A DNA stretch of 64,000 nt from Faecalibacterium sp. I3-3-89 (GTDB lineage: Bacteria > Bacillota > Clostridia > Oscillospirales > Ruminococcaceae), in the NCBI RefSeq assembly GCF_023347275.1, contig NZ_CP094468.1, positions 310,001 to 374,000 of the forward strand. Reading direction: 5' to 3'. How positions within the stretch are numbered: position 1 is the first letter of the stretch; every line of letters begins with the position of its first letter. Position numbers and translations under genes: made by a program. This document shows, in pieces, positions 13,928-37,521 of the stretch. The notes under the pieces were generated by a model, which made no database searches, was not told the DNA's origin, and worked only from the letters and a program-made list of their open reading frames with translations.

Positions 13928-13946
13928 GCAGGAAAGGAGATCCGCA

Positions 13947-14795: not shown

Positions 14796-14810
14796 ACAGT
14801 ACACCATACA

Positions 14811-14846: not shown

Positions 14847-14920
14847 CTAAATATTTAACTTGGCTCTCTCAGCCCTACCACACCTGCCAGCGTGGAGCGG
14901 ACAGAGAAAAACACGCTATC

Positions 14921-14944: not shown

Positions 14945-14966
14945 TACGATCAACAGGAGGAATACA

Positions 14967-16229: not shown

Positions 16230-17780
16230 AGAAAACCTCCTGTGCAGATGAAGAAAGCCACGATGTGCGTCATTCTCCGACGCTTCATCGTGGCTTTTTT
16301 GTGGTCGAGCAGAGCTGGACAAATCCGAACTATTTCCCACTGCTTCAGCAGCAGTCAAGGCATCCTCAAAGCGGATGGTTTGAGAACCATCCTTGTAGTT
16401 GAACGTAATCAGCATCCGGTCATCATACAGGAAAATCGCGTTCACAAAAATCTCAATCAGTGCTTTGCGCTGTTTTTGCTGCGATATATCGAACTTTCTG
16501 AATTTCATCAGCCAGAACCGGATGAAATCGGCATTGAAGGATGGCTTTCTTAACTTCTCGTCAGCAATTTTGGCAGTCAGTTCATCCTTCTGAGCTTCCA
16601 AGGCATCCAGACGCTCCTTGGTCGTCCGGGTAAATAAGCCCTCCTCGATTGCTTTCATCAGGTTGTCCAGTTTCCTGTCCACCTCTCGGAGCTGCTTTTC
16701 CAAGAGCGGAATCGTGGTGTTCTCTTGGTTCTGAAAATCCATAACCAGTTGAACGATCCGTTCAATCATGGCATCATCCTGAATCAGCTTCATCGTCTCT
16801 TGGACGACCAAACTTTCGAGCCAGTCTTTCTGTACGGTTTTCTTATTGCAGCCTTTGCGCCGCTTGGCAGTAGCACATTTATAGTAATAGTAGGTTCGTC
16901 CGGTGGCACTTGTTCCGCTTTCGCCAAACATCAATGCTCTACACTTGCCACAGAACAGCTTGGTGGTCAATAAGTATTCCTCATCTGCCTTTCCGCGAGC
17001 TGGTGCGCGCTTGTTTTTCTCCAGACGCTTCTGAACACGGTCAAACAGGTCTTTCGGGACGATGGCAGGAATCGCATCTGGCACAACGGTATCTCGGAAA
17101 GAAAGCTCTCCAATGTAACGGCGATTCTTCAACATGGTGTTCATGCTGCTGCACGTCAGTTTTCCACCCAGCATATTACGAACGCCTTTTTCGTTGAGAT
17201 AGTTCAGAATCTCAACGATTTTTTCACCATTGTCGTACCGCTGAAAAGCCTCTAATACAAATGGAGCAACAAGCGGGTCGATGCGATAGAACTTTTCTTC
17301 GTCGATTTTATATCCAATCGTTCCGGTGCCGCCTGTGCATTTCCCTTTCAGGGCGTTTTCGGTCTGACCTCGAATGACCTTTTCGGAAAGTTCAGCCGAA
17401 TAGTATTCTGCCATGCCCTCCAGCAACGTTTCCACCAGAATGCCCTGCGAACCTTCAGCAATTGGTTCCATGACCGAAATCAAGTGGACATTATTCTTTT
17501 TCAGAATCATCTTGTAGTTTGCACTGTCAAAACGATTCCGGGCAAAGCGGTCAAACTTCCAGACCAGCACAATTTCAAACAGCTTCTTATTACTGTCCCG
17601 AATCATTTGCTGGAAATCCGGTCGATTATCCGTTTTGGCAGAAAGTGCACGGTCAATGTAGTGCCTGACCACTGTGATGCCGTTTCTTTCGGCATAGGCT
17701 GTGCATTCACGAATCTGACCCTCGATGGATTCTTCACGCTGGTTATCACTGGAATAGCGAGCGTAGATCACAGCATTCAT
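15819..17780 (-). CDS. Large serine recombinase, reading frame fused to deformylase
   Basis: The element's recombinase. The catalytic domain spans about residues 1-150, with IYARYSSDNQREES carrying the nucleophile Ser. A Recombinase domain follows (about 165-265), then a zinc ribbon (FCGKCRALMF and CATAKRRKGC) and a coiled coil with many Glu and Lys. It catalyses site-specific integration and excision. The ATG at 17780 follows GAGGTGCTTGCC. About residue 493 the frame crosses the left element boundary at 16302-16307 and reads on through host sequence into the deformylase, giving 653 residues. In the circular element the tail would instead come from the right end (37515 down to the stop at 37402-37404). 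So the visible C-terminus is an integration product. Confidence 0.85.
   Translation of the reverse strand: MNAVIYARYSSDNQREESIEGQIRECTAYAERNGITVVRHYIDRALSAKTDNRPDFQQMIRDSNKKLFEIVLVWKFDRFARNRFDSANYKMILKKNNVHLISVMEPIAEGSQGILVETLLEGMAEYYSAELSEKVIRGQTENALKGKCTGGTGTIGYKIDEEKFYRIDPLVAPFVLEAFQRYDNGEKIVEILNYLNEKGVRNMLGGKLTCSSMNTMLKNRRYIGELSFRDTVVPDAIPAIVPKDLFDRVQKRLEKNKRAPARGKADEEYLLTTKLFCGKCRALMFGESGTSATGRTYYYYKCATAKRRKGCNKKTVQKDWLESLVVQETMKLIQDDAMIERIVQLVMDFQNQENTTIPLLEKQLREVDRKLDNLMKAIEEGLFTRTTKERLDALEAQKDELTAKIADEKLRKPSFNADFIRFWLMKFRKFDISQQKQRKALIEIFVNAIFLYDDRMLITFNYKDGSQTIRFEDALTAAEAVGNSSDLSSSARPQKSHDEASENDAHRGFLHLHRRFSMIRDICKDELFLARKAASASPEDLPIAQDLLETLIAHKDGCVGMAANMIGAAKRIIAVEGEDGYLVMFNPVILKKSGPYETEEGCLSLTGTRKTKRFQTIKVQWQNEKFQTRIKTFTGWTAEILQHEIDHCDGILI
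16254..16300. terminator. Hairpin between the element end and the deformylase gene
   Basis: AAAGCCACGATG (16254-16265) pairs with CATCGTGGCTTT (16286-16297) and T-runs occur on both strands. If the mobile element is removed on paper, this hairpin falls directly behind tRNA-Pro, so it is probably the original tRNA terminator of the host. Confidence 0.7.
16302..16307 (-). other. Left attachment site core (attL)
   Basis: CGACCA on the minus strand, inside the recombinase frame (codons for Arg and Pro). It is followed by CAAAAA, as the tRNA copy is followed by GACAAAAA. The identical core is short, as is usual for serine recombinases. Confidence 0.6.
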
Positions 17781-17804
17781 GGCAAGCACCTCACTTTTAT
17801 ACAT

Positions 17805-17953
17805 CGTTGCACGCTAAAGCGTTCATTCAAAAATTGTTTCGTATAATGTATATACCATAATATACGATGGATTGCAAGATATATTTACACTATTATAGGC
17901 AGAAGAGGTGGTGTTCATTTTGGACACCACCTCTTCTGTCGCTTGTGAATCGC
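17805..17953. promoter_or_regulatory. AT-rich recombinase promoter region and hairpin
   Basis: The gap between the recombinase start and the lacZ end. It contains AT-rich sequence with TATA-like boxes (17828-17870) that probably serve recombinase transcription. The hairpin AGAAGAGGTGGTGT (17901-17914) with ACACCACCTCTTCT (17924-17937) lies just behind lacZ. It lacks a clear T-run, so it may be a weak terminator or a mRNA 3'-end structure. Confidence 0.5.
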
Positions 17954-20977
<3,024 letters not shown>

Positions 20978-21035
20978 TTACCTCCAAGGGAGAAAATGAC
21001 ACAGACGAACCTTGAGTTACGCTGCGGGAAAATAT

Positions 21036-21803
21036 TCAATAATTTTTGATATCCTGAATCCGTTCTTCCAGATGCAGATTCTTTTCCATTGTGGAATACA
21101 CAGAGAATGCTGCTAACAGACTGGGGACCCATAATCCAGTGAGCAGAAACATAAACGCACATCGTGGAATCAAGAATGCTATCAGCAGCCAGTATCCAAC
21201 CTGCACGATTGCAGAGAGGGCAGTCTGCGGTAGGAAGCCGAAGAACATCCGGATGCAATTGGACGACTTTTGAAAAATCGAGCCATAAAACAGTGCGTTC
21301 TGCATCCAGAAGTAGTTGCCCAGCGTCAAGAGAAGAACGGCATCCAGCAGCAGAATCAGCGCAAAGCTCAGGGAGATTTCTGTCATCTGCGGCAGCACGA
21401 ATGCCGACCATGCAAGCAGTGCCCACAACACGGTAAACACGATGCCGGGAACAAGACTGCTTCGGAAGTTCTGCTTCCATGCCCGCTTGTAGGTGTGCCA
21501 CCAGAATCCCGGCTCATCCCGCAAGGCACGCAGGATGGTATCGTACAGTCCGGTCAGAGCCGGACCCACCAGCCACCCGGCGGCGACCGCCGCCAGCAGG
21601 CACAGCGGCAGGCTGCCCAGCCAGAGGGCAATGCCTGCCAGAATTGCTGCCGGGACGCAGACTAACATCGCCAGTGCCCCGGACAGGAAAATGCCGTCCA
21701 GATCCCGGCTCAGAATTTCAAACAACCGCGCCAGCCCTTTTTTGCGGGGCGTATCCGGGTTGATTTCTGCACCTTCCGGCATAAAGTTCTGTTCAAACAT
21801 CAT
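21036..21803 (-). CDS. YesL-like (DUF624) membrane protein
   Basis: A 255-residue protein with about five or six membrane segments (for example LAMLVCVPAAILAGIALWLG, LVPGIVFTVLWALLAW and FALILLLDAVLLLTLGNYFW). The N-terminus KGLARLFEILSRDLDGIF and the GLYDTILRALRDEPGFWWHTYKRAWKQNF-type loop (residues 86-114) are typical of the YesL/DUF624 family. These proteins accompany YesM/YesN-type two-component systems and sugar ABC transporters in Firmicutes, also in the B. subtilis rhamnogalacturonan cluster. The function is unknown, possibly a helper in transport or signalling. The start follows GGAGGAAGCAGA. It sits between the GH28 and lacZ genes in one operon. Confidence 0.8.
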   Translation of the reverse strand: MMFEQNFMPEGAEINPDTPRKKGLARLFEILSRDLDGIFLSGALAMLVCVPAAILAGIALWLGSLPLCLLAAVAAGWLVGPALTGLYDTILRALRDEPGFWWHTYKRAWKQNFRSSLVPGIVFTVLWALLAWSAFVLPQMTEISLSFALILLLDAVLLLTLGNYFWMQNALFYGSIFQKSSNCIRMFFGFLPQTALSAIVQVGYWLLIAFLIPRCAFMFLLTGLWVPSLLAAFSVYSTMEKNLHLEERIQDIKNY

Positions 21804-21904
21804 TCTGCTTCCTCCATTGCGGTTCGTTTTACAGTTTTATTGTACCACAGTCAGAGAGAAAACGGGTTGTAGAAAAGAGGCTGCTTTTTTGGAGAAAAAC
21901 GGCA

Positions 21905-23434
21905 TCATTCCGGCTGCACCCCTGACCGGACGGTAATATTTTCAAAACTGACATTCCGGCAGTACTGCATCCGGATGTTTTGCTCCGGGCCGCCGTTGTC
22001 CTCTAACACCACATCCTTGAAGCAAATGTTCTTCACCTCATAGCCCGGCACATCAAAGCCCTTCAGCTCGATGGCAGGACAGGTGTGCCATACATGGTCG
22101 TGGTCAATGTATCGTCCAAGCAGCGTCACCCGATTATAGCGGAAATCTTCCAGCACAGGCGGCACAGGTGCACCGATGCCGTCATCGTTGTACCCGACCG
22201 AATGCACCATGACATGAGAGAGGGTGCAGTCCCGTACTTCCACATTCCGGACATAGCCGCCCCGCTTTTTCGTAACCTTGATCTCCAGCCCGGAGGTGGA
22301 TACTGCCATATCACAGTCCCAGATCTTCACATCCTCCACACCGCCGCTCATCTCGCTTCCGATGCAGATACCGTGTCCGAAACCGCTGTGGCAGTCGAAC
22401 ACGCGGATGTGTTTCGTCGGGCGGTCGATGATATTCCCCTCCGGGTTCTTGCCGGACTTGATGGCAACGGCATCGTCTCCGGTAAAAAACTCGCAGGCGA
22501 AGATCGTACAGTTTGTGGAAGAATCCGGGTCCCAGCCGTCCCCGTTCCAGACACCATCCGACCGGATGGTACAGTGGTCGGTCACGATTTGGTCGGAGTA
22601 GACCATATGCAGATTCCAGCTTGCGCCGTTTGCAAATGTCAGCCCTTCCATCCAGATGTTCCGGCAGTTGCTCATGTTGACAAGTCTCGGCCGGACGCGC
22701 CCCGGAATCGTATCGGCATTTTCGCAGGTAGAAACAAGAGTGGCATTTTGGGCAAGGTAGTCCTTCAGCCTTTCCCGCTCGCTTGCAATGATGCGCTCTG
22801 CCAGCAGTTTTCCGCCGGATGCAATCGTTCCCTTGCCGCGCAGAATTACGTTTTCACAGTTTGGCCCGGCAGTATGGTCAAGCGTACCGAGGTTCAACAG
22901 GCTGCTGTAGCACTCCATCTCAGTGCCCTCAAAGCGGCTGGAAATGCGCGGCAGATAATCCTCTGGGTCTGCTGTGCCTTGCAGCACAGCTCCTTCTTCA
23001 AGGTAAAGTTCCATATTGCTGTGCAGACGCAATGTGCCTGTGCAGTAAACACCTGCCGGAAAATAGATTTGTTCACGCTCGCCGCAGTCGTCGATGGCTT
23101 TTTGCAGGGCGGCAGTATTCATGGCCTTTCCATCGCCCACAGCAGAATAAGGAGATGCAGTCACATCCAAACAGCGTTTGGTCGGTGTTGTCCGGATAGT
23201 CAATTCCCCAATGCTGCCGCTCCGCCACTGAACGAACAGCGAATAGGTCGTTTCCGGACGCAGATTCTCCAATGTACAGTGGGTCTTTTGGGTATGAGCA
23301 GCAGCGGCATCGTCCAGCAGGACGGTATAGGTTTCGACCGCACCGGCAGCGGCGGGCTTATCCCAGAACAAGGTAATGCTTGTATCGGTGCAGCAGGCGG
23401 TCAGGCCGTTCTGTGAAAAGAAATGGTTCGGCAT
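21905..23434 (-). CDS. Glycoside hydrolase family 28 (polygalacturonase-like) with fibronectin III domain
   Basis: A 509-residue protein. Residues about 8-95 form a fibronectin type III domain (ITLFWDKPAAAGAVETYTVL, ETTYSLFVQW). The right-handed beta helix of GH28 follows. The catalytic Asp residues are visible: Asp302 in DGWDPDSSTNC and Asp320-Asp321 in GDDAVAIKSG, then His354 in GHGICIGSE and the substrate-binding ..IKVTKK motif. GH28 enzymes hydrolyse galacturonic acid linkages in homogalacturonan or rhamnogalacturonan. No signal peptide is visible, which points to an exo-acting cytoplasmic enzyme that frees galacturonate from imported oligomers. The ATG at 23434 follows AAGGAGAGCTTTT; the longer frame upstream overlaps the esterase gene. 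Confidence 0.9.
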   Translation of the reverse strand: MPNHFFSQNGLTACCTDTSITLFWDKPAAAGAVETYTVLLDDAAAAHTQKTHCTLENLRPETTYSLFVQWRSGSIGELTIRTTPTKRCLDVTASPYSAVGDGKAMNTAALQKAIDDCGEREQIYFPAGVYCTGTLRLHSNMELYLEEGAVLQGTADPEDYLPRISSRFEGTEMECYSSLLNLGTLDHTAGPNCENVILRGKGTIASGGKLLAERIIASERERLKDYLAQNATLVSTCENADTIPGRVRPRLVNMSNCRNIWMEGLTFANGASWNLHMVYSDQIVTDHCTIRSDGVWNGDGWDPDSSTNCTIFACEFFTGDDAVAIKSGKNPEGNIIDRPTKHIRVFDCHSGFGHGICIGSEMSGGVEDVKIWDCDMAVSTSGLEIKVTKKRGGYVRNVEVRDCTLSHVMVHSVGYNDDGIGAPVPPVLEDFRYNRVTLLGRYIDHDHVWHTCPAIELKGFDVPGYEVKNICFKDVVLEDNGGPEQNIRMQYCRNVSFENITVRSGVQPE

Positions 23435-23445
23435 AAAAGCTCTCC

Positions 23446-24186
23446 TTATAACAGACTCTGATAAGCTTCCAGATACCGCAGCCCCAATGTGCGCAGGGCT
23501 TCGGTGGTAAAGTGCAGTCCATCCGGGCGTGCTGTCAGGCCTTTTGCCGAGACTACGGCACACCGGGGCAGCTGCGCTGCCCACTCCGGCAGACGACGGT
23601 TGAATTCGTGCAGCAGTTCTGCGGGTGTTCCGTGAAAGCCGTTTTCCGGCCAGCCCAGTTCGCCCACCACGATGGGCAGATCGCCGAGTTCTTTCCGGAA
23701 CGCCTGCATCGTGCGCTGAAACTGTTCGGGGTAGGCTTCCAGCTGTTCCGGTGCAAGGCAGTCGCTCTCACCCTGATGCCATAAAATCGCCGTAAGCGCA
23801 GAAGTACGCTGTGCCAGCCTTGCCTGAAACACGGCATGGTCAAACAGCACCTCGCCCGGCTGCCACTGGGAAATGCGGGTGCCGCCGTCTGCACATGGAA
23901 TCAGGCCGATTTTTGCTCCGGTCTCTTTTTGCAGCTGCGCCGCAAAGCTGGCTGCAAGGTTTGCCCCGCTGCGGGGAACTGCCCCTTCCACCACGGCCCG
24001 GTCCACATTGATTGGTTCGCTCATCTCCTGCCAGCGGCCCATCCGCAGCATAAAGCAGTCCGGTGCAGTGATGGCGTTTTCCTTTGTCAGGTCGCCGCGC
24101 CCGGCCATGTTAGACTGCCCCACCAGCAGAAAAGAATGGATATCTGCTGCCGCTTCATGCAGCCCATCGTTGATCCATAATGCCAT
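23446..24186 (-). CDS. SGNH-type carbohydrate acetylesterase (sialate O-acetylesterase/CE6-like)
   Basis: A 246-residue esterase. The N-terminal block FLLVGQSNMAGRGDL contains the nucleophile Ser of the SASA/DUF303 family, the middle has AILWHQGESDC and the C-terminus has RPDGLHFT with the catalytic Asp and His. Such enzymes remove acetyl groups from plant polysaccharides (xylan, pectin) or sialic acids. Without a signal peptide it should deacetylate imported oligosaccharides, so that the GH28 and GH2 enzymes can act. It is the first gene of the minus-strand operon; the ATG follows AGGAGGCGTTTTGTT, and GH28 follows 11 bases after its stop. Confidence 0.85.
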   Translation of the reverse strand: MALWINDGLHEAAADIHSFLLVGQSNMAGRGDLTKENAITAPDCFMLRMGRWQEMSEPINVDRAVVEGAVPRSGANLAASFAAQLQKETGAKIGLIPCADGGTRISQWQPGEVLFDHAVFQARLAQRTSALTAILWHQGESDCLAPEQLEAYPEQFQRTMQAFRKELGDLPIVVGELGWPENGFHGTPAELLHEFNRRLPEWAAQLPRCAVVSAKGLTARPDGLHFTTEALRTLGLRYLEAYQSLL

Positions 24187-24539
24187 AACAAAACGCCTCC
24201 TGCGTGTTTTTTAACTCAGTATAGCACAAAAGCAGCCGACATTCACGAACGGCTGCTTCTATGCTGTGAAAATGATGAAGAAGGAGAAAACCAAGCAAAA
24301 AGTCTTGGGAGGAATACCGCTCCCACCTCCATCGGCGGCAGATGCCGGTGGCAATCAATGGATGCAGGTTGCACGATGCGGATTTCCTGTGGCTTCAGAA
24401 TATCACATTCTGCCCGGTTCTGCCTGTACAAATCCGGCATTCTTCTTGAACCGGAGCGACATTCTGCGGGCAAATCTTGCAAATTATAATAAAGTATATT
24501 ATTTTATAGGCAGGAGAAAATGGTGAAGGAGAGAGCAAC
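24187..24539. promoter_or_regulatory. Divergent control region of the utilization locus
   Basis: 353 bases between the esterase operon (minus) and the regulator operon (plus), with no supported gene. A -10 box TATACT on the minus strand (24218-24223) lacks a good -35 box, as expected for an activator-dependent promoter. A hairpin AGCAGCCG/CGGCTGCT spans 24231-24257. AT-rich sequence with TATAAT-like boxes near 24484-24510 precedes the response-regulator gene. The response regulator probably binds here. Confidence 0.45.
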
Positions 24540-26000
24540 TTGTATACACTGTTGATCGTGGACGATGAGGAGATCGAGCGTGAAGGAATGGCACAGTTCA
24601 TACCGTGGGATTCCTATGAGATAAAGGTCGTTTCCACCGCTCGGAACGGTGCCGAGGGGTTGGAAAAAATCGCAAAATTCCGGCCTGACCTCGCCATCGT
24701 GGACATCAAGATGCCGGTGATGAACGGCATTGAGATGATCCGGCAGGCAAAGGAGCAGTACCCGGATATGACCTTTGTGGTGCTTTCCGGCTATGGTGAC
24801 TACGAATTTACCAGTCAGGCCATGGAGCTGGGGGTGCGGCATTACATCCTCAAGCCCTGCGATGAATCCAAAATGATCCCGGTGCTGAACAAGGCGTTTG
24901 CGGAACTGGAAGAAGCCCGCAAAAAGAATGCACGCTCCGAAAAGCTGGAGACCGAAGCCCGGCTGCTGAAGCCCTATGCACGGGAGCAGCTGTTCCGGGA
25001 TCTGCTGTTGGGAAAGGCGCAGGCATCTTCCGGCGCACGGCAGCTTGTGGACGAACTGGGCGGCGAACAGCGCATGGTCCTGCTGTTGGATTTCCGCCTC
25101 AAATGCGGATTCGACTCGCTGGAACGGTATGTCGTGGGCAATATGCTGGGCGACCTTTTGCCGGACGGCACCCTGCTCATGACCACCGGTGTGGACCGGG
25201 ATGTTCTGGTTCTGGCAGATGCTATGGCGGAATCCAGTGTGGAAACAGCGGTTCAGGTGCTCAAAAAAGAATTCAAGCGGTTTGAAACGCTTCCAATGCT
25301 TTCTTCTGCCAGCCGGACAGGAACGCTTGCAGAGCTTTCCGTGCTGTTCCGGCAGGCGCAGGAGCTTTTGCAGCTGAACATGGATGAAAACGAGCCCGCC
25401 CTTCTGCGCCCTTCCCGGAATGCGGCATTGCCGGAAACGGTGAACGAGATCTTTGATCTGGAAGCACTGCGGCAGACCGGCAGCTATGAGGAGCTTTTGC
25501 AGGAGCTTGCGTTTTCCTTTGCCAAAATGGAGGCAAAGGACTATCGCCCGCAGCAGCGGCAAAAGCTCTGCGAGCTGGCGTGGAAGCTGCTGTTCGAGGA
25601 CAAGGCTGCCCCGGAGGATTCGCTCCCGGCATGGGCAGATGCTCTGACCGCCGCATGGAACCACCCCCAGCCCGATGCTCGGAGCCGGGAGATCTTTCTT
25701 GCCATCTACGAAAACCTCCCGGAGCCGGAGTTCAGCTTGCAGACCATTGCACAGCAGCGGCTTTTCATGAGCGAAGATCACCTGCGGCGCATCTTCTCCC
25801 AGATGACCGGCAACCGGTTCTCGGCGTATCTGGAACACTGCCGCATCACACAGGCCCGGCGGCTGCTGGAATTTCAGCCGGATATGAAGATCAGCCGTCT
25901 GGCGGAACTGGTGGGCTACCCGCTGGACGGACAGTATTTTTCCAAAGTATTCCGTAAGATCTGCGGCGTGACACCGACGGAATACCGGAACCATCATTGA
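24540..26000 (+). CDS. YesN-type response regulator, AraC family
   Basis: A 486-residue response regulator. The receiver domain covers residues 1-120 with Asp8-Asp9, the phosphorylated Asp55 in LAIVDIKMP and Lys105 in YILKP. A long linker follows. The C-terminal AraC/XylS domain (about 385-486) has two helix-turn-helix units, with LFMSEDHLRRIFSQMTGN and KISRLAELVGYPLDGQYFSKVF. It is paired with the YesM-type kinase at 31446-33233 and probably activates both cargo operons. The start is a TTG at 24540 after AAGGAGAG, since no ATG in frame lies near. It begins the plus-strand operon and is separated from the binding-protein gene by a terminator. Confidence 0.88.
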   Translation: MYTLLIVDDEEIEREGMAQFIPWDSYEIKVVSTARNGAEGLEKIAKFRPDLAIVDIKMPVMNGIEMIRQAKEQYPDMTFVVLSGYGDYEFTSQAMELGVRHYILKPCDESKMIPVLNKAFAELEEARKKNARSEKLETEARLLKPYAREQLFRDLLLGKAQASSGARQLVDELGGEQRMVLLLDFRLKCGFDSLERYVVGNMLGDLLPDGTLLMTTGVDRDVLVLADAMAESSVETAVQVLKKEFKRFETLPMLSSASRTGTLAELSVLFRQAQELLQLNMDENEPALLRPSRNAALPETVNEIFDLEALRQTGSYEELLQELAFSFAKMEAKDYRPQQRQKLCELAWKLLFEDKAAPEDSLPAWADALTAAWNHPQPDARSREIFLAIYENLPEPEFSLQTIAQQRLFMSEDHLRRIFSQMTGNRFSAYLEHCRITQARRLLEFQPDMKISRLAELVGYPLDGQYFSKVFRKICGVTPTEYRNHH

Positions 26001-26013
26001 ACAGGCTGCTTTT

Positions 26014-26051
26014 GAATGTCGGTTTTTTCCAAGAGAAAGACCGACATTTTC
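26014..26051 (+). terminator. Terminator after the response-regulator gene
   Basis: AATGTCGGT (26015-26023) pairs with ACCGACATT (26040-26048), followed by TTCC and further T-rich sequence. A TACAAT box at about 26079 then gives the next gene its own promoter. Confidence 0.65.
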
Positions 26052-26165
26052 CATTTTGTTTTTGAAAAAAAGCGATACAATAAAAGCAACAAAAGGGTGC
26101 GTACCATACAGGGAGCGACGGCTCCCCCGTAACAGAAAACACGAAGGAAAATGGAGGAAATTCTC

Positions 26166-27512: not shown

Positions 27513-27521
27513 TGAAACCAT

Positions 27522-27558
27522 GCGGGAGGGGTCACTCCACAGACCCCTCCCGCCTTTT
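27522..27558 (+). terminator. Attenuating terminator behind the binding-protein gene
   Basis: GCGGGAGGGGTC (27522-27533) pairs perfectly with GACCCCTCCCGC (27542-27553), followed by CTTTTTG. Permease genes follow directly, so it probably sets the ratio of binding protein to permease. Confidence 0.85.
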
Positions 27559-27578
27559 TGTGAAAAGGAGGCCTCGCT

Positions 27579-28490
27579 GTGTCAAACACAAAAGCTGTTG
27601 CGCTGAAAAAGCACAATTTTGGCGATGATACCAAAGTCGGCTATCTGCTGCTGGCTCCGTGGCTGTTTGGATTCATCTTCATGTATGTGATCCCGGCTGC
27701 GATGTCCATCTACTATTCCTTTACGGATTATAACCTGCTGTCCGCCCCCAACTGGGTCGGACTGAAAAACTATATCACTATTTTTACAACCGATAAGACC
27801 TTTCGCAAGGCGTTGGTCGTTACGTTCAGCTATGTCTTTATCATGGTGCCGCTCCGTCTGGCCTTTGCGCTGTTCGTGGCAACGTTGCTGAACAAAAAGC
27901 ACATGGGCATGGCGTTTTATCGTGTTCTGTATTACATCCCGTCCATCGTCGGCGGCTCTATCGCTGTTTCCGTGGTCTGGAAGCAGATTTTCGGCAACAA
28001 GGGTGTTCTTATGAGCCTGCTGTCTGCCATTGGCATCGAACAGAAATTCTCCCTGCTGGGCAACCCCAAAACTGCTCTGTTCGTCATCGTCCTGATGGGT
28101 GTGTGGCAGTTCGGTTCCTGTATGCTGGTGTTCCTCTCCGGGCTGAAGCAGATTCCGAATTCCCTGTATGAATCTGCTTCGCTGGATGGTGCTTCCAAGA
28201 TGCAGCAATTCTGGAAAATCACCATGCCGATGCTGACCCCGACTATCTTCTTCAACCTCATCCAGCAGATCATCAACGGTTTCCGCGTCTTTACCGAGAG
28301 TTACGTTATCACGGATGGCGGCCCCATGAACAGCACTCTGACCTATGTGCTGTACCTGTACCGCTCGGCATTTGCAAACTTCCACATGGGTTACTCCTGC
28401 GCACTGGCATGGATTCTGGTTGCCATCATCGGAGTTATGACCCTGATCCTGTTCAAGAGCCAGAACAGCTGGGTTCATTACGAAGGGTAA
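27579..28490 (+). CDS. Sugar ABC transporter permease (MalF/UgpA type)
   Basis: A 303-residue inner-membrane permease with six predicted membrane segments; the first is LLLAPWLFGFIFMYVIPAAM. The conserved cytoplasmic EAA loop reads ESASLDGASKMQQFWKITMP, which contacts the ATPase. Together with the next gene it forms the channel for the oligosaccharide bound by the lipoprotein. The start is a GTG at 27579 with AAAAGGAGG upstream. It resembles YesP/LplB-type permeases. No ATPase gene is present in the element, so a shared MsmK/UgpC-type ATPase from the chromosome must energize it (family knowledge). Confidence 0.9.
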   Translation: MSNTKAVALKKHNFGDDTKVGYLLLAPWLFGFIFMYVIPAAMSIYYSFTDYNLLSAPNWVGLKNYITIFTTDKTFRKALVVTFSYVFIMVPLRLAFALFVATLLNKKHMGMAFYRVLYYIPSIVGGSIAVSVVWKQIFGNKGVLMSLLSAIGIEQKFSLLGNPKTALFVIVLMGVWQFGSCMLVFLSGLKQIPNSLYESASLDGASKMQQFWKITMPMLTPTIFFNLIQQIINGFRVFTESYVITDGGPMNSTLTYVLYLYRSAFANFHMGYSCALAWILVAIIGVMTLILFKSQNSWVHYEG

Positions 28491-28502
28491 GGAGAAAGAA
28501 AA

Positions 28503-29354
28503 ATGGTTGGTCAGAAAAGTACAAAGGCACAATCCGTGTTCTTCCACATTTTTTCCTGTGTTCTGGGCTTTATCATGGTGTATCCGCTGCTGTGGCTGCT
28601 GATGAGCTCTTTCAAGTCCAACGACACCATGTTCCACAACGCATGGTCGCTCATCCCGGAAAAGTGGGATATTCTCACAAACTACCTTTCCGGCTGGAAG
28701 GGTATCGCGGGCATTCCGTTCTGGCGGTTTACATTGAACAGCGTCATCGTTACTGTGGTCTCGGTTGCAGGCACTATCTTCTGTTCCCTGCTCGCCGCCT
28801 ATGCGGTTTCCCGCCTGAAATTCAAGGGTGCAAACTTCTGGTTCGGCTGCATCGTCATGACTATGATGATTCCTTCGCAGGTCATGGTAGTGCCCCAGTA
28901 CATCATCCTGAAAAAGCTGGGACTTTCCGATACGCTGGTTTCTATGACCCTGCCGTGGGTGTTCGGCTACGGCTTCTTCATCTTCCTCATCGCCCAGTAT
29001 ATGCGCGGCATTCCCCGTGATCTGGACGAGGCTGCCATGCTGGACGGCTGTTCCAAGCCCGGCATCCTGTTCAAAATTATGATTCCCATCGTCAAGCCCG
29101 CCATCGTGACCGCAGCCATCTTCGCCTTCTACTGGATCTGGCAGGACTTCTTCCAGCCGCTGATCTTCGTTTCCAGCCCGAAGAATTATACCATCCCGCT
29201 GGCACTGAAGCTCTACACCGACCCCAATAGCTACAACAACTACGGCGGTCTGTTCGCTATGTCGGTGCTGTCGTTGCTGCCGGTCATCATCGTGTTCATC
29301 CTGTTCCAGAAATATATCGTTGAAGGTATCGCCACTGACGGCATCAAGGGTTAA
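28503..29354 (+). CDS. Sugar ABC transporter permease (MalG/UgpE type)
   Basis: A 283-residue permease, partner of the preceding one, with six membrane segments (for example FIMVYPLLWLLMSSFKSN at the N-terminus, the typical YPL..L..SFK pattern). The EAA loop reads DEAAMLDGCSKPGILFKIMIP. The C-terminus FILFQKYIVEGIATDGIKG matches the YtcP/UgpE ending IVEGITAGAVKG-like. The ATG at 28503 follows AAGGAGAAAGAAAA, 12 bases after the previous stop, so the two permeases are coupled. A terminator follows before the GH115-like gene. Confidence 0.9.
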   Translation: MVGQKSTKAQSVFFHIFSCVLGFIMVYPLLWLLMSSFKSNDTMFHNAWSLIPEKWDILTNYLSGWKGIAGIPFWRFTLNSVIVTVVSVAGTIFCSLLAAYAVSRLKFKGANFWFGCIVMTMMIPSQVMVVPQYIILKKLGLSDTLVSMTLPWVFGYGFFIFLIAQYMRGIPRDLDEAAMLDGCSKPGILFKIMIPIVKPAIVTAAIFAFYWIWQDFFQPLIFVSSPKNYTIPLALKLYTDPNSYNNYGGLFAMSVLSLLPVIIVFILFQKYIVEGIATDGIKG

Positions 29355-29365
29355 GTTCATTCATC

Positions 29366-29399
29366 AAGGCACTGTGCGGCGCGTACAGTGCCTTTTTTC
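29366..29399 (+). terminator. Terminator after the permease pair
   Basis: AAGGCACTGT (29366-29375) pairs with ACAGTGCCTT (29385-29394), followed by TTTT. Confidence 0.85.
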
Positions 29400-29418
29400 A
29401 AAAGAGAGGTTTTTGTGT

Positions 29419-31425
29419 ATGATTCTCAACCGGAATAGTCAGATTGTTGCTACGGAGCCGCCAAAGCCCGTACAGTATGCCATCTCTGCCTTGCAGAGAG
29501 ATAAGAAAGCTGTATTCACAGAGACCGGAATGCCCGGCGGCGATATCGTTCTTGCAAAGGATAGTGACCTTCCGCCGGAGTGTTTCTGCCTGCAGGTGCA
29601 TGAGGACAGACTGATGCTGACCGCCGCCGATGCCCTCGGCTTTGTATACGGTCTGTTTGAAATCAGTCGCCGTTTTCTGGGTGTGCAGCCCTTCTGGTTC
29701 TGGAACGATCAGAAATTTATCCAGACCGATGGCGTGACTGTGCCGCAGAATTTCACATATGAAAGCAAGCCCGCACGGGTACGGTACCGCGGCTGGTTCG
29801 TCAACGATGAAACTCTGATTTCCCACTGGAAGGTGGAACGCCGCAGCGAGATGCCCTTTGTGATGGTCTTTGAGACGCTGCTGCGGCTGGGCGGCAATCT
29901 GGTGATTCCCGGCACGGGCAAAAACGGCCACCGCTACCATGATCTTGCAGCGGATATGGGCCTCATCATCACCCACCACCATGCCGAGCCGCTGGGAGCC
30001 GAAATGTTTGTGCAGGCGTACCCGGAGCTGGAACCAAAGTTCAGTCTCTACCCGGAAAAGTTCCGCGCGCTCTGGCAGCAGGCCATTGACCGGCAAAAAA
30101 ATACACCCACCGTCTGGAACATCGGGTTCCGGGGGCAGGGCGATAAACCCTTCTGGGAGGACGACCCCCAGTACGACACCCCGGAAAAGCGGGGCGCACT
30201 GATTTCCTCCCTCATCCGGGAACAGTATGATCTGGTCAAGCACAGCGACCCGCATGCCGTCTGCTGCACCAATCTGTATGGGGAGACTATGGAACTGTAC
30301 CAGCAGGGCTGCCTTGATCTGCCGGACGAGGTGATCAAAATCTGGGCAGACAATGGTTTCGGCAAGATGGTCAGCCGCCGTCAGGGTAACAGCAATCCGC
30401 GTGTGAAAGCACTGCCTCCGCAGGGCGATACCGGTGCGCATGGTCTGTATTATCACGCATCCTTTTATGATTTGCAGGCGGCAAGTCACATTACCATGCT
30501 GCCCAACAGCACGGAGTTTGTCTGCGAGGAGCTGACCAATGCTCTCCGTCACGGTGTGGACGATTATTGGCTCATCAACTGCTCCAACGTCAAACCCCAT
30601 GCATATCTGCTGGATTATATCGCCCAGCTCTGGCAGAACGGCACCGCCGACCCGGAGGGACACTGCATCGCTTATGCACAGGCTTACTACGGCAAAGCCA
30701 ATGCCCTGCCCGTGGCAAAATGCCTTGCCGGATATGCGGACCATGCCGTATCGTACGGGGAACACCCGGACGACCATGCAGGTGATCAATTTTACAACCA
30801 TGTGCCCAGGATGCTTATTACCCAGTTCCTCCGTGACCGCACCCAGCCCAGCGAGGACCTGAACTGGCTATGTGACCGTCCGGCTCTGAGCGGGCAGGCA
30901 GCATGGTGCGGTGAAAAATTCCGAGAAGCCATGCAAAACTATGAGCAGTATCTTCGCCAATGCGAAGCTACTGCTGCCACTCTGACTGGTGCCGCACGGA
31001 CACTTTTTCAGGATACGCTTTTGATGCAGGCACAGCTCTACACATTCTGGGCAGAGGGCGGCGAGGACGTATGCGCAGCACTGGAGGCCGGTTTCGTGGG
31101 CGACTGGAAGCATTGCTTCTATCAGGCAGGCCGGGCAAAAAATGCCTACACTGCCGCAAATGCTGCCATGCGGAACCGGGAACATGGAAAATGGATTGAC
31201 TTTTACGCCAACGAGTGTCAAACTGATGTTAAACAGTCGGCACAGCTTTGTGGTTACCTGATGAGCTTTGCACGTACAATGGGCGAAGGCCCGCATTTTT
31301 ACGAATGGATGCGGGAGTTTAACGACAGCGAAGCGGACCGCCGTGTGATGCTGATCCTGAACACGGACAATCACCCGGATGATGACACCCTTTGGCGGCT
31401 TATGGAGCAGCACTGGGGGCAGTAA
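29419..31425 (+). CDS. Glycoside hydrolase family 115-like protein (alpha-glucuronidase type)
   Basis: A 668-residue protein with the layout of a short GH115 enzyme. The N-terminal domain (about 1-100) has ADALGFVYGLFEISRRFLGV, a typical helix of alpha-glucuronidase-type accessory folds. The barrel follows with VRYRGWFVNDE (GH115 RG.F.NDE), VIPGTGKNGHRYHDLAADMG and MGLIITHHHAEPLG. GH115 enzymes release (4-O-methyl)glucuronic acid from xylan or arabinogalactan side chains. It is shorter than well-studied GH115 proteins and may have another specificity. No signal peptide is visible. The ATG at 29419 has only a GAGAGG-like site; the frame upstream runs through a terminator. The family call is from motif pattern, moderately certain. 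Confidence 0.72.
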   Translation: MILNRNSQIVATEPPKPVQYAISALQRDKKAVFTETGMPGGDIVLAKDSDLPPECFCLQVHEDRLMLTAADALGFVYGLFEISRRFLGVQPFWFWNDQKFIQTDGVTVPQNFTYESKPARVRYRGWFVNDETLISHWKVERRSEMPFVMVFETLLRLGGNLVIPGTGKNGHRYHDLAADMGLIITHHHAEPLGAEMFVQAYPELEPKFSLYPEKFRALWQQAIDRQKNTPTVWNIGFRGQGDKPFWEDDPQYDTPEKRGALISSLIREQYDLVKHSDPHAVCCTNLYGETMELYQQGCLDLPDEVIKIWADNGFGKMVSRRQGNSNPRVKALPPQGDTGAHGLYYHASFYDLQAASHITMLPNSTEFVCEELTNALRHGVDDYWLINCSNVKPHAYLLDYIAQLWQNGTADPEGHCIAYAQAYYGKANALPVAKCLAGYADHAVSYGEHPDDHAGDQFYNHVPRMLITQFLRDRTQPSEDLNWLCDRPALSGQAAWCGEKFREAMQNYEQYLRQCEATAATLTGAARTLFQDTLLMQAQLYTFWAEGGEDVCAALEAGFVGDWKHCFYQAGRAKNAYTAANAAMRNREHGKWIDFYANECQTDVKQSAQLCGYLMSFARTMGEGPHFYEWMREFNDSEADRRVMLILNTDNHPDDDTLWRLMEQHWGQ

Positions 31426-31445
31426 ACGAAATGTGAGGAAAGGCC

Positions 31446-33233
31446 ATGTTCCACCGAGCCAAAAAACAGTTTCTTGATTTACCGCTGGCACAGAAATTTG
31501 TCGGTATCTTTGCGGTACTGACCCTGCTCAGCGGTGCGCTGATGATCGGCGCACTGCATTTGGGACTTTCAGTCTTTGAGGAAAAGTTCTATGAGAAATC
31601 CCTGCAGGAACTGGATTTTTTCGTGCAGAAGGTGGACGATGATATTCAGGGCATTGACACCCTGACCCGCAGCATCGCCGTGGATTCCACGATTCAGCAG
31701 CAGATGAACGCCCTTTCAAACGCAGACCCGGAGACAGCAAATTACTATTATCTGCTCACAGGCATCCGCCCGCTCCTGCTGGAAAAAATCTATCAGGACG
31801 GGCAAATCAGCAGCCTGCAATATACCGATCTGTATGGACATACACTGACCATCGGGCAGGATATGCCCGACCCCGGTGCGGCCCGGTTGACCGCCCTTGA
31901 AATGTCGCTGAACCAGACCCCCGGCGGCTTTACACTGGTGTCATCCGACAGTGCAGACTATCCGTACATCCTCTGTGGGCGGAGAATCTTGCGCAGTCAG
32001 GACATGAGCCTGAAAAAACTGGGCACCGTTGTGGTAGCACTGAATGTCGGGAAATTGCTGGACAATGAGATTCACCGCCTTTCCAGCAAACCATCTGAAC
32101 TGTATCTGTACAATTGTCAGACGCTGGTTTATCACAGCGGTAAGGCGGCGGATGCCGTTGTGCTGCCGGACAGCGCACAGGGTTATAAGATCCAGACCTT
32201 GAGCGGCAAGAAAAAATTCATCTGCTGGCAAACCAGTTCACTTACTGGACTTCGGCTATGCAGTGTATTTGACTACCATGAAATCTATGGCCAAATCAAT
32301 GCGGCTCGAAATGCCCTGATATTCGGTGAATGTGCGATTCTGCTTCTGTTTGCATGGGTGCTTCTGCATATGGCGCGCCTTGTCACAAAGCCAATCCATA
32401 CTCTGGGCGAAGCGGTGCAGACGGTTGACCAGCAGGAGGGTAACTTTGCAGCAGCCCGCGCCCTGTTGCCGAAAGACATCTCGGCAGATGAAATTGGCAC
32501 ATTGACAAAAGAATTTGATTCCATGCTGGGCAAGATCGACACACTGATCCATGAGAATTACGAAAAACAGATTCTCCTGCAGGAAACCCGGTATAAGATG
32601 CTGCAGGCACAGATCAACCCGCACTTCTTATACAACACCCTCGGAACGCTGAACTGGCTGGTCAAAGCAGGCAACCGGGAAGATGCCTGTAAGATGATCG
32701 TCAGTCTGGGCGACATTCTCCGTGCCGCCCTCAGCCCGCGCCAGAATTCTACCGCGGCAGCAGATGTACAGCTGGCAGGCAGTTACATCGCCATTCAGCA
32801 ACTTCGCTATAAGAGCCGTGCGGAGTTTACGCTGACGGCATCCGGTGAACTGGAGCAATGGTCCTTGCCGCACTTTACCTTGCAGCCGCTTGTAGAAAAC
32901 GCAATCCATTATGGCGTGGAGGACAGTGATGAAGTTTGCAAAATCGATGTGATCGTGCAAGCAGAGGATGATACCTTGACATTGATTGTTCACAATACTG
33001 GAAAGCCTGTCAAACCAGAGAAGCTAACTAAGATACGAACCTTCACAGTCAAACCGCAGGGACACGGCATTGGCTTGAAAAACATCTACGAGCGGCTGTC
33101 TATGCTTTACAAGGCCTTTGGGTTTGATTTTGACAGTGATGAATCCGGCACGACGGTCAAAATTGTACTGAAGCAGGAAAATCTGGCCGTTTCGGAAGAT
33201 ATTAGTGATACTTCTACCGCTTTACCGCAATAA
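31446..33233 (+). CDS. YesM-type sensor histidine kinase
   Basis: A 595-residue membrane kinase. The first membrane segment is about 18-42 and the second about 288-312. Between them lies an extracellular sensor domain of about 245 residues that probably detects the sugar or the loaded binding protein. A HAMP-like linker with TKPIHTLGEAV follows, then a His_kinase (LytS/YesM) domain with QAQINPHFLYNTL, where His393 is the phosphorylated residue. The ATPase part has QPLVENAIHYGV and GHGIGLKNIYERL. It pairs with the regulator at 24540. ATG after GTGAGGAAAGGCC, 20 bases after GH115. It is the last gene of the cargo before the mobilization region. Confidence 0.88.
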   Translation: MFHRAKKQFLDLPLAQKFVGIFAVLTLLSGALMIGALHLGLSVFEEKFYEKSLQELDFFVQKVDDDIQGIDTLTRSIAVDSTIQQQMNALSNADPETANYYYLLTGIRPLLLEKIYQDGQISSLQYTDLYGHTLTIGQDMPDPGAARLTALEMSLNQTPGGFTLVSSDSADYPYILCGRRILRSQDMSLKKLGTVVVALNVGKLLDNEIHRLSSKPSELYLYNCQTLVYHSGKAADAVVLPDSAQGYKIQTLSGKKKFICWQTSSLTGLRLCSVFDYHEIYGQINAARNALIFGECAILLLFAWVLLHMARLVTKPIHTLGEAVQTVDQQEGNFAAARALLPKDISADEIGTLTKEFDSMLGKIDTLIHENYEKQILLQETRYKMLQAQINPHFLYNTLGTLNWLVKAGNREDACKMIVSLGDILRAALSPRQNSTAAADVQLAGSYIAIQQLRYKSRAEFTLTASGELEQWSLPHFTLQPLVENAIHYGVEDSDEVCKIDVIVQAEDDTLTLIVHNTGKPVKPEKLTKIRTFTVKPQGHGIGLKNIYERLSMLYKAFGFDFDSDESGTTVKIVLKQENLAVSEDISDTSTALPQ

Positions 33234-33866
33234 ATTTCGCAAAACAATATTGACGCACCTACACTTTCATGATACCCTTTATTCCAAATCCTGCTGACAA
33301 AAGTGGTGGTTCTCACCGTGATAACCACCACTTTCAGTGGACGATTGCCCAGAAAGAACGTACCGCCCGCAACACACCCGATTCATTTTGCCGCCGATTC
33401 ACCCGACAAAATCATCGCTGCGCTGCGTGGGCGGTATTTTTCTTTTATGGGAAACGCACCTTGAAAATTTCATGAGCCGACCGGACGTGATACCGACTTT
33501 TCGTCAACGCCGCTGTACAAACAGGGGCAGGAACTTCGTTCGGAGCAAACGGTGACTCCCTTACATGAGCAGCATCACCTCTACTTATTTTTGCGTCTTA
33601 ACAATTCGGAAACATTTGTTGAAAATGCGTTTTGAGCGCAGCGGTAGAGGGCAAGAACCGTCCCGTGGCCACAAATTTTCAATTCTTGAAAATGTTGTGC
33701 TCCACCGGGACTTCACTTCTTCAATGCGTCTGCATTTCCGAAGTGATCTTGTTGGGGCGTGCCTGCCCCAAACCCTGCTCATCATTCGTGCCTTGCGGCA
33801 CGAATGGAACGGCGTGTCGTGCTTACATAACTTCACCGAGGAGTTATCGAACAGACAGGAGGTACA
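33234..33866. other. Non-coding mobilization region with several palindromes
   Basis: About 630 bases without a supported gene. Structures seen: hairpin AAAGTGGTGGTT (33300-33311) with AACCACCACTTT (33323-33334); a roughly 50-base imperfect palindrome at 33661-33710 with inner arms ATTTTCAA/TTGAAAAT and outer CACAA/TTGTG; and a perfect stem at 33783-33806. Its position directly upstream of mobC and the relaxase is where an oriT is normally found. Confidence 0.6.
33783..33806. other. Candidate oriT inverted repeat
   Basis: CATTCGTGCC (33783-33792) pairs perfectly with GGCACGAATG (33797-33806) around TTGC. The flank GGAACGGCGTGTCGTGC on the mobC side could hold the nick site. Relaxases of this class nick beside such a repeat; the exact nick is not visible. 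Confidence 0.5.
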
Positions 33867-34301
33867 ATGACCAAAACGAATGTTCAACTGACCCCTAGCA
33901 ATTCCCAGCACCACGACACGCCGAACAACAAAACGCACGTCATCAAGTTCCGTGTGACAGCGGAGGAAAAAGCGTCACTGGAACTCACTTGCAAACTCCT
34001 GAATCTCTCCCTCTCCACTTTCATCCGCCGTGCCATCCACAACGTCAAGATCGAGAAAACGGTCATCGTTGCCGGCGGCGGAGAAGAAACCCTGACCGCT
34101 GTTTCCACCCTGCTTGCCCAGTGCAACAAGGTGGGCGGCAACCTCAACCAGCTTGCAAGGCACTTCAATTCCGGCGGTGCAGACACCGAGCAGATCCGGG
34201 CGAAACTCCTTGACGAACTTGCAGACCTGACTGCATTCCGGCTCAGCGCCGAGAAAGTTCTGGGTGAACTGTATGGCAACGCTCAAGCATATCAGCTCTA
34301 A
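33867..34301 (+). CDS. mobC: MobC-like relaxosome accessory protein
   Basis: A 144-residue protein. The N-terminal half has a ribbon-helix-helix-like DNA-binding pattern (HVIKFRVTAEEKASLELTCKLL then LSTFIRRAIH). The C-terminal half has the MobC block TLLAQCNKVGGNLNQLARHFN, which is characteristic of mobilization accessory proteins. It is thought to bind oriT and help the relaxase to open the strands. The ATG follows ACAGGAGGTACA. It overlaps the relaxase start by 29 bases, which implies coupled translation. The location beside palindromes at 33.2-33.8 kb fits this role. Confidence 0.85.
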   Translation: MTKTNVQLTPSNSQHHDTPNNKTHVIKFRVTAEEKASLELTCKLLNLSLSTFIRRAIHNVKIEKTVIVAGGGEETLTAVSTLLAQCNKVGGNLNQLARHFNSGGADTEQIRAKLLDELADLTAFRLSAEKVLGELYGNAQAYQL

Positions 34302-35808: not shown

Positions 35809-35820
35809 AGGAGTGTGCGT

Positions 35821-36696
35821 ATGATCAACTTGAAAATTGACCCGGAGTTCCAGTCCCAGATCCCTCCACTGACCGATGATGAATTCAAGCAGCTTGAAGA
35901 AAATATCCTGAAAGAGGGCAAGCTGCTCTCTCCTTTGATTGTTTGGAATAACACCCTTGTTGATGGTCACAACCGTTATGAAATCGTTCAGGAACATCCC
36001 GAAATCTCCTTCTCCACGATGCCGCTCCCGTTTGAAAGCAGAGAAGAAGTCCTCGCATGGATCTGCAAAAACCAGTTGGGGCGGCGCAACCTTACACCGG
36101 AGCAGAAGAAGTTCCTCATTGGAAAGCAGTACAGTGTGGAACATCGAAAGCCCGGTGGAAACGGCAACAACCAGCACACGACGTCTTCCAAGAAAACCGC
36201 CCCGGAGGAATTGTGTCAAATTGACACAATTCCTCCCACTGCCACAGATACAAGCGTCCGCAAGCAGATTGCAGAGCGGAACAACGTTAGCGAATCCTAT
36301 GTTGTCCGCTCGGAAAAGTTCATGCGGGGCGTTCAAATCATGGATCAGATGATACCCGGTATGCAGGAGAAAATTCTGTCCGGGCAGTTCAAAGTCCGTG
36401 ATGCCGATATGCACCGTCTTGCCAGGGCAGATTTTCCGAACCGCAAGCAGATCGTGCACGAAATTCTGCACCCGGAGGAGCGCCCTGCTCCGCAGAAACG
36501 CATCTACGGAATCAACTATTCTGCGCTGGAAGCTGCCGTCCGGCGAATCCAGCAGGATGTTGATTTCCTGATGAAGTATCTCCCCAAGGTGCCTGATGAT
36601 GCCTATGTGAAAGTGGAGACCACGAAGATCCTGAAGCAGCACAAGGCGTATATGGCACAGTTTGAAGAAATGCTGAACGATGAAAAAGTCGCATAA
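35821..36696 (+). CDS. ParB/Spo0J-like nuclease-domain protein
   Basis: A 291-residue protein with a ParB N-terminal domain: PPLTDDEFKQLEENILKEG, LIVWNNTLVDGHNRYEI and the EVLAWICKNQLGRRNLTPEQ continuation, a pattern found in element-borne ParB-like proteins. A helix-turn-helix-like part follows (VRKQIAERNNVSESYVVRSE). The role may be DNA binding, element maintenance or regulation. A 33-base palindrome sits inside the gene at 36204-36236. The ATG at 35821 follows AAAGGAGTGTGCGT. The gene is 12 bases behind the relaxase, so they form one operon. Confidence 0.8.
   Translation: MINLKIDPEFQSQIPPLTDDEFKQLEENILKEGKLLSPLIVWNNTLVDGHNRYEIVQEHPEISFSTMPLPFESREEVLAWICKNQLGRRNLTPEQKKFLIGKQYSVEHRKPGGNGNNQHTTSSKKTAPEELCQIDTIPPTATDTSVRKQIAERNNVSESYVVRSEKFMRGVQIMDQMIPGMQEKILSGQFKVRDADMHRLARADFPNRKQIVHEILHPEERPAPQKRIYGINYSALEAAVRRIQQDVDFLMKYLPKVPDDAYVKVETTKILKQHKAYMAQFEEMLNDEKVA
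36204..36236. repeat. 33-base near-perfect palindrome inside the parB-like gene
   Basis: Arms of 16 bases, GGAGGAATTGTGTCAA (36204-36219) and TTGACACAATTCCTCC (36221-36236), flank a single A. The RNA would form a very stable hairpin within the message. The linker codons it covers encode EELCQIDTIPP. Confidence 0.9.
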
Positions 36697-36840
36697 CGAC
36701 AGGCACTTGTAAGCCATCAACGAGCCACCAGCCGCAAGTGCAGGGCGGAAAGCATCCGCGCCCTTGCGCCTGACATGAAATTGGAACTTTGATTTTCTTG
36801 CCCGGCTTTGCCACGGTGGGACAGTCAAAGGAGCGTGCGT

Positions 36841-37362: not shown

Positions 37363-37465
37363 AATCGTGTCCTCCTGAAATCACTGTCTGGCTTGTATCG
37401 GTCAATCTATGATTTCGGATTTCGTCTTCTGTCGGAAACCGCTATTGAGCTTTCCGAAGAAAACA

Positions 37466-37509
37466 AATAATCCGAACCCATCTCCTATTGGAAATAAGTT
37501 CGGATTATT
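37466..37509. terminator. Hairpin at the right end of the element
   Basis: AATAATCCGAAC (37466-37477) pairs with GTTCGGATTATT (37498-37509), with T-runs on both sides. It ends the tRNA-Pro transcript in the integrated state. Read on the minus strand from 37515, the same bases are an open frame that would extend the recombinase in the circular form. Confidence 0.8.
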
Positions 37510-37515
37510 TTTGTC

Positions 37516-37521
37516 TGGTCG
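37516..37521 (-). other. Right attachment site core (attR) within the tRNA-Pro 3' end
   Basis: CGACCA on the minus strand: the last acceptor bases, the discriminator A and CCA. The same six bases in the same orientation occur at 16302-16307. Element sequence GACAAAAATAATCC follows directly. Confidence 0.6.

Follow-up and report, generated by a model that had tools for sequence, protein, structure and literature searches.

Organization of the locus

The window (the whole 64,000-nucleotide stretch of DNA analysed, positions 310001-374000 of the 2.82-Mb single-contig genome of Faecalibacterium sp. I3-3-89, here G000) holds a 21,214-bp insertion at a tRNA-Pro(TGG) gene (Table 1). Matches to PF00239, PF07508 and PF13408 (resolvase, recombinase and zinc-ribbon domains) within 15819-17804 show that the element encodes its own recombinase. 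A sequence-only reading had proposed a 21-kb mobilizable element here, with the recombinase at one end and the mobilization genes at the other, and Pfam bears this layout out for the recombinase, the relaxase and, just below the cut-off, MobC, but offers no match for the protein called ParB-like. The cargo genes it named (GH2, YesL-like, GH28, acetylesterase, regulator, binding protein, permeases, GH115 and kinase) all have Pfam support. T4SS families are absent from the element ORFs scanned with Pfam, leaving the element with no mating-pair apparatus of its own; coupling proteins (PF02534) are found at three places elsewhere in the genome, and a near-identity search of the mob genes against plasmids gave no match. 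The recombinase body, MobC, the relaxase and both ends look intact and sibling-like, and an oriT would most plausibly lie in the conserved non-coding arm upstream of mobC. The G+C content does not clearly set the element apart.

Table 1. Features of the insertion and its surroundings, in window positions (L069 and L070, element-free sites; L179, nearest related element)
Feature	Position	Strand	Remarks
Chromosomal hexuronate pathway, outside the element	3120..15767		Pfam; collinear in L069 and, from 9207, in L070
pdf-like peptide deformylase, host gene	15819..16229	-	one open frame with the recombinase; adjoins element-free tRNA-Pro in L069 and L070
Host hairpin, displaced	16251..16300		type seen beside tRNA-Pro at several unoccupied sites
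attL core TCG	16305..16307		element sequence proper from 16307; L179 similarity begins at 16305
Serine recombinase body, tRNA-Pro class	16305..17804	-	stop codon from host flank
Exchangeable cargo block	17879..33298		borders from comparison with L179
GH2, beta-galactosidase-type	17954..20971	-	Pfam
YesL-like DUF624 membrane protein	21036..21803	-	Pfam
GH28, pectin-enzyme/exo-polygalacturonase-like	21905..23434	-	Pfam; obvious signal peptide absent
SASA-family acetylesterase	23446..24186	-	Pfam
Response regulator with AraC-type HTH	24540..26000	+	Pfam
Solute-binding lipoprotein	26151..27512	+	Pfam; lipoprotein start by eye
Two ABC permeases	27579..29354 (27579-28490, 28503-29354)	+	Pfam; ATPase absent
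GH115, alpha-glucuronidase-like, about 668 aa	29419..31425	+	Pfam
Sensor histidine kinase (His_kinase)	31446..33233	+	Pfam
Conserved non-coding arm upstream of mobC	33299..33866		hairpin 33300-33334; presumed oriT location
NikA/MobC-like accessory protein	33867..34301	+	NikA-like Pfam match; MobC just below cut-off
MobA/VirD2-type relaxase, about 511 aa	34273..35808	+	PF03432
ParB-like protein	35821..36696	+	called from appearance; no Pfam match
Small ORF, about 83 aa	37111..37362	-	present in several siblings too
Element-borne hairpin, now 3' of the tRNA	37465..37510		putative terminator
tRNA-Pro (TGG), integration site	37516..37591	-	tRNA prediction and Rfam
attR core TCG, final three tRNA-body bases	37519..37521		element stops at 37520 and contributes CCA

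Boundaries and empty sites

The ends of the element are secure because two congeners, G012 and G015, have empty sites (L069 and L070) in which hexuronate genes, pdf, a short spacer, tRNA-Pro and Rrf2 follow one another without it. The window aligns with L069 over 1-16230 and then from 37519 to 38730 (about 89-95% identity) and with L070 over 9207-16230 and then from 37519 to 41530 (about 76-90%), which keeps the flanks in order and places the ends within a few bases. Empty sites had been predicted to carry the window's left-hand hairpin between pdf and the tRNA, and here the prediction failed: the empty sites exist, but the hairpin is absent from both pdf-linked ones. Hairpins of this type follow tRNA-Pro at the unoccupied sites of G008, G014, G002 and G027. 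A hairpin similar to the one that the element places beside the tRNA stands next to the tRNA in G024, which has no chassis genes there and where it may be either native or a remnant. An unoccupied site in the window's own species would read hairpin-TTTTTTGTGGTCGGAGTGG.

The nearest relative, L179 in G028, sits at the same tRNA type and gives an exact junction. Its host flanks, when joined, match the unoccupied site of G027 with 4 mismatches and 1 gap over ~490 aligned bases, and the junction is clean: the empty site reads CATATC/GGAGTGG, the left end CATATC/GAGCAG and the right end TCTGGTC/GGAGTGG (slash at the junction). TCG is the sole sequence common to both ends of L179. The hexamer CGACCA (TGGTCG as read), which had been proposed to mark the ends in the window, is present at both, but by itself it is weak evidence, and since the host flank that was there before insertion has TGG at this point too, as do unoccupied G008 and G014, the six-base repeat is partly coincidence. 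Integration restores the body of tRNA-Pro, the only feature matched in an Rfam scan of 15800-38200. The tRNA genes of L069 and L070 do not encode CCA, which in the window the element supplies.

We compared 31 genomes of the genus, one per species, and viewed the surroundings of tRNA-Pro(TGG) in 25 of them (all but G009, G018, G019, G020, G022 and G026). The site is occupied in two, G000 and G028, with differing cargo. At the other 23 the recombinase, mob and cargo proteins of the element found no match in the stretch read, which was short in some genomes, apart from a weak hit in G003, to a 104-aa frame that is itself doubtful. No genome examined has the glycan genes at this place without the recombinase and mob genes, a pattern that would have spoken against the mobile-element reading. 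Specific integration is thus supported by the empty sites at the window's location in other species and, to the exact base, by the sibling L179.

Cargo and its probable substrate

Glycoside hydrolases, an oligosaccharide transporter and a regulator are co-located in the element, as expected of a gpPUL. No obvious signal peptide was seen by eye in the GH2, GH28, GH115 or esterase proteins, and the binding protein is of lipoprotein type, so oligosaccharides would be imported and then cut inside the cell. The locus had been called whole and complete, a description that we have to give up: neither an ABC ATPase nor any step of uronate catabolism is found among the element ORFs. A search of the genome turned up a single MalK-type ATPase, outside the element. 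To the left, the element is flanked by a chromosomal hexuronate pathway (UxaC, UxaB-like, UxaA-like, aldose epimerase, GntR, HAD, KDPG aldolase, KdgK of the PfkB type, KduI and a KduD-like SDR), which ends ~0.5 kb from the insertion, and the host genes would therefore complete the pathway. Most or all of this cluster is also present in the empty-site genomes.

Judging from family names, the substrate is likely an acidic plant-wall oligosaccharide, for which we regard pectin as only one option. The pectin-type label given earlier fits GH28, whose best structure match is named a pectate lyase and is followed by exo-polygalacturonases, but GH115 and GH2 would also fit other glycans, such as glucuronidated xylan or arabinogalactan. 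That the substrate is not pectin but glucuronoxylan, arabinogalactan or some further glucuronidated glycan is a serious contender, in our estimate a little short of an even call. The structure matches of the GH115 protein are, where named, all GH115-type (6 of 6), two of them being named xylan alpha-1,2-glucuronidase, while the best one is unnamed, and elements with a similar GH2 also hold DUF2264, a second GH2 and a heparinase-like protein. Against this stand the GH28 matches and the adjoining host pathway, which could take galacturonate or glucuronate. Pectate lyase, GH105 and GH78 families are absent from the element ORFs scanned with Pfam. GH115 proteins of this kind are common in public data (cluster P0001, 2,809 member sequences). 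DUF2264, GH2 and the heparinase-like protein occur with a transporter and a two-component system at L184/L185, L206 and L213, perhaps for use of arabinogalactan.

A family with a shared frame and exchangeable cargo

DNA matching the mob arm (E<=0.001) is found in 27 of the 31 genomes and DNA matching the recombinase in 26. From a census of 55 loci (L179-L236 without L196-L198) we dropped two duplicates, L199 and L201, and 16 loci whose fetched stretch lacked either the recombinase or all mob genes; in the 37 further loci that remain, a related recombinase and one or more mob genes are paired around other cargo. Eleven belong to the tRNA-Pro class, with recombinases 86-95% identical to the window's. 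In the other 26, whose sites, where identified, differ and whose recombinase-mob pairing is by distance and orientation alone, the identity is 54-65%. Both end sequences are present in 10 of the 10 tRNA-Pro-class elements compared, which span 16.3-21.2 kb; L193, with no arm at its tRNA end, and L194, truncated where its contig ends, were outside this comparison. The recombinase is split into pieces in L200, L208, L210, L222 and L236, among others.

We sorted the cargo of 38 elements, the window's included, by clustering, with Pfam and PADLOC run on representatives and the rest assigned by cluster membership or by eye. It is related to sugars or organic acids in 13: besides the window's element these are L179 (rhamnoside/PTS), L180, L187, L189 and L194 (lacto-N-biose), L182, L203, L209, L214 and L223 (TctABC with a sulfatase), L208 (UxaC with TRAP) and L215 (GH1-like with a sulfatase). 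Type I restriction-modification accounts for 7, a two-gene GHKL-type cargo for 7, an ABC-exporter cluster for 6, ABC genes with a two-component system for 2 and other cargo for 3. Type I restriction-modification cargo is carried on the frame by L181, L188, L190, L191 and L192, and in L191 a 661-bp inverted duplication (6980-7640 and 9169-9829) may shuffle a specificity gene. L200, L210, L212, L217, L224 and L236 hold some 11-17 genes with two ABC exporters and, by eye, alpha/beta-hydrolase-like proteins. L180 (G000:C1:1100150-1120149) is a second element in the window's own genome, at tRNA-Pro(GGG), and carries a lacto-N-biose/galacto-N-biose phosphorylase locus (GH112-type, kinase, transporter) that is also present in G011, G012 and G015.

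The full cargo of the window's element is at no other locus in the 31 species genomes. Pieces of it occur elsewhere: GH2 relatives (82% DNA identity) at seven further places in the genus, GH28/YesL in G011, the esterase in G029 and the regulator-to-kinase block in G006. On a contig of Ca. F. gallistercoris (L071, the same contig as L196 and counted once) this block lies beside an rve transposase; no chassis recombinase or mob protein was matched there in the stretches read.

The comparison with L179 separates frame from cargo most directly. Matches to the window are confined to 16305-17878, 33299-34856, 35250-36132 and 36674-37593; both arms are thus common to the two elements and no cargo is. 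The arms are 80-87% identical, against 87% for a chromosomal stretch compared with the same genome, and a recent transfer of the window's copy therefore lacks support. Upstream of mobC, similarity to the window reaches 501-677 bp in 30 of the 32 elements compared, with gaps in some. The exceptions, L218 with only the nearest 101 bases and L210 with no match, count against a constant mob arm. In the recombinase tree, whose bootstrap is not fully settled, the recombinases of the window and of L179 group together with support, their cargo differing, and ten GGG-class members mix lacto-N-biose, restriction-modification and other cargo. A tRNA-Pro(GGG) gene adjoins 7 of these 10, a tRNA fragment adjoins L189 and L191, and L194 is cut by a contig end. 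That the right ends of L189 and L191 adjoin a fragment of tRNA-Pro(GGG) and not the whole tRNA suggests tandem accretion of several elements. Between G000 and G012 the lacto-N-biose cargo shares 97.9% identity over 8.6 kb, against about 89-95% for the chromosomal region compared; for G000 and G015 the figures are 95.4% over 9.6 kb and about 76-90%. This points to movement of the family between species. The window's own element has no such excess of identity over the chromosome.

Recombinase tails and joined ends

Integration rewrites the C-terminus of the recombinase. In the window its frame crosses the insertion site into pdf and is 661 aa long, whereas in the joined (attP) form it would end after 538 aa. 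A protein database search with the joined form scored 7,993 proteins, of which we analysed the best 120. In all but one (119) a single motif closes the body, and 40 differing tail beginnings follow it, counted as the first six residues (one is empty, another, shared by seven proteins, consists of P alone, and some are near-variants of each other). We reject the reading of the recombinase-pdf open frame as a functional fusion, given this diversity behind one body. Peptide-deformylase tails occur in 17 of the best 120 and fall into two kinds, with 93-98% and 85-86% identity to the tail in the window. Near-identical bodies adjoin both kinds of pdf flank and other flanks, which suggests repeated integration. 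The tail beginning PQEKPR (P0133) is encoded by the hairpins of G008 and G014, and YDKKPR belongs to L179 and G027.

One public recombinase, P0158 (8 member sequences, 87% identical to the query), runs into the right end of an element. Its tail matches L187 at 88.6% over 70 aa from the tRNA boundary of L187, and L191 at 79% over 87 aa. We read P0158 as the attP junction of a GGG-class relative; since it reads across joined ends, a circle or a tandem copy exists. For the window's element a DNA pattern of the attP junction found nothing in the 31 genomes or in viral contigs. The first 20-odd residues of the attP-coded tail are alike in the ten elements compared, and we considered whether this tail is a functional switch of direction, but the same DNA also forms a hairpin, and in P0158 there is a frame change inside the tail.

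In P0182, P0208, P0223, P0228 and P0233, GGG-class recombinase bodies run into one identical frame of 808 aa, radical-SAM-like by eye, which is a possible second integration site. In P0153 the body continues in frame into a type I specificity-subunit domain (PF01420).

Discussion

We hold with considerable confidence, if not certainty, that the window contains an IME at tRNA-Pro(TGG) that would be transferred with the help of a separate conjugation system and whose cargo for acidic oligosaccharides would feed the hexuronate pathway of the host. The large serine recombinase would join attP of a circle to the last three bases of tRNA-Pro(TGG), which read TCG in the window's orientation and CGA in that of the tRNA, and the tRNA is kept whole by the CCA and the new downstream hairpin that the element brings, with the old hairpin pushed to the far end. 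MobC, the relaxase and the conserved region upstream of mobC would nick the circle for transfer through a conjugation system that would have to be external, as the element has none. The kinase and regulator would sense an acidic plant oligosaccharide, and the binding protein and permeases would import it using a host ATPase. Inside the cell, GH115 would remove glucuronate, GH28 galacturonate, GH2 galactose and the esterase acetyl groups, and the released uronates would pass to the chromosomal hexuronate pathway, which here lies alongside by chance.

It is also conceivable, although we think it unlikely, that the element arrived as an IME and is now an immobile genomic island, its cargo kept for use beside the hexuronate genes. 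The rarity of occupied tRNA-Pro(TGG) sites, with different cargo in each, is consistent with this, as are the failure to find the attP junction of the window's copy and the fact that its arms are not unusually similar to those of relatives. But the intact, sibling-like appearance of the recombinase body, MobC, relaxase and both ends argues against a fixed island, and so do the near-identical recombinase bodies beside varied flanks. That the landing beside the hexuronate genes was selected and not accidental strikes us as improbable: the pathway that would consume the products of the cargo does end close to the insertion, but the same class of recombinase is found at tRNA-Pro with rhamnoside, lacto-N-biose or restriction-modification cargo, and the order of hexuronate genes, pdf and tRNA-Pro already exists in the element-free G012 and G015. 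Spread by capsid (GTA or transduction), with the mob genes as relics, is very improbable, since although GTA-like packaging is reported for Faecalibacterium, the packaged fragments given in the accessible text are 8.4-8.9 kb (PMC12946183), too short for 21.2 kb, and the region upstream of mobC is kept in nearly all of the elements compared.

Returning to the mobilizable element, its relatives carry other cargo on a like frame, and it looks like one of a set of swappable nutrient packages. Glycan use varies between strains of Faecalibacterium, an abundant genus of the gut. We find it tempting to speculate, and would put the chances at about even, that serine-recombinase IMEs form a family throughout the genus, with one class landing at tRNA-Pro and repairing the tRNA with CCA and a terminator; that complete cassettes, for metabolism or defence and up to some 15 kb long, are swapped between two constant arms, the Gram-positive equivalent of mobile polysaccharide utilization loci; and that differences in glycan use between strains are largely differences in cassettes. 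With ends, core and tRNA target known, the sequence adjacent to the recombinase tells the site and cargo of each copy, and a defined frame would let one predict in which strains a nutrient pathway can be acquired or lost in a single step. A mobile cassette for uptake and cutting, paired with a fixed uronate pathway, would be a case of mobile genes that need host genes for their use.

Guedon et al. (2025; Sci Rep 15:17013) reportedly describe conjugative and mobilizable elements in Faecalibacterium, which may include the window's family. That work aside, no paper among the best literature matches listed places a serine recombinase at tRNA-Pro in Faecalibacterium. The sequence-only reading had thought such an element little described, which goes too far: publications already cover both ICE/IMEs and mobile glycan loci of Faecalibacterium. 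Many ICE/IMEs and islands are reported in F. prausnitzii (PMC6295017, in the part available); the genus and the large numbers of mobilizable elements are points in common. The beta-mannan locus FpMULL of F. prausnitzii, flanked by relaxase and integrase genes (PMC8262883), and a GalNAc locus, a structural variant that is thought mobile and follows ABO type (PMC10808065), are, as far as the accessible texts go, glycan loci of the same genus with mobile-element flanks or presumed mobility, for other substrates, and these texts do not state their ends, core or empty site. Many serine-integrase IMEs are recorded in gut Firmicutes, with mucus hydrolases enriched on Bacteroidetes elements only, in the available portion of PMC6907783.

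The site and the mechanism also have partial precedents. In the excerpts available of PMC5704250 and PMC7563491, tRNA 3' ends are targets of tyrosine integrases, and serine integrases enter dispensable genes or intergenic DNA. Serine-recombinase IMEs (Tn4451/TndX-like and others; PMC5704250) resemble the window's element in having their own recombinase, a relaxase, no transfer machinery, a very short core and cargo, but they are reported to disrupt dispensable genes, whereas this one uses and restores a tRNA 3' end. In streptococcal rumA ICEs with a single serine integrase, integration swaps the 3' part of the integrase gene for host sequence and alters the C-terminus (PMC4701971, accessible text), and the principle of C-terminal exchange is therefore already known; there the target is an altered protein gene, while here the tRNA is left whole. 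The system of PMC11913394, as given in its available part, likewise keeps a transporter, a regulator and glycoside hydrolases together, and the window's version places such a set on a delimited mobilizable element.
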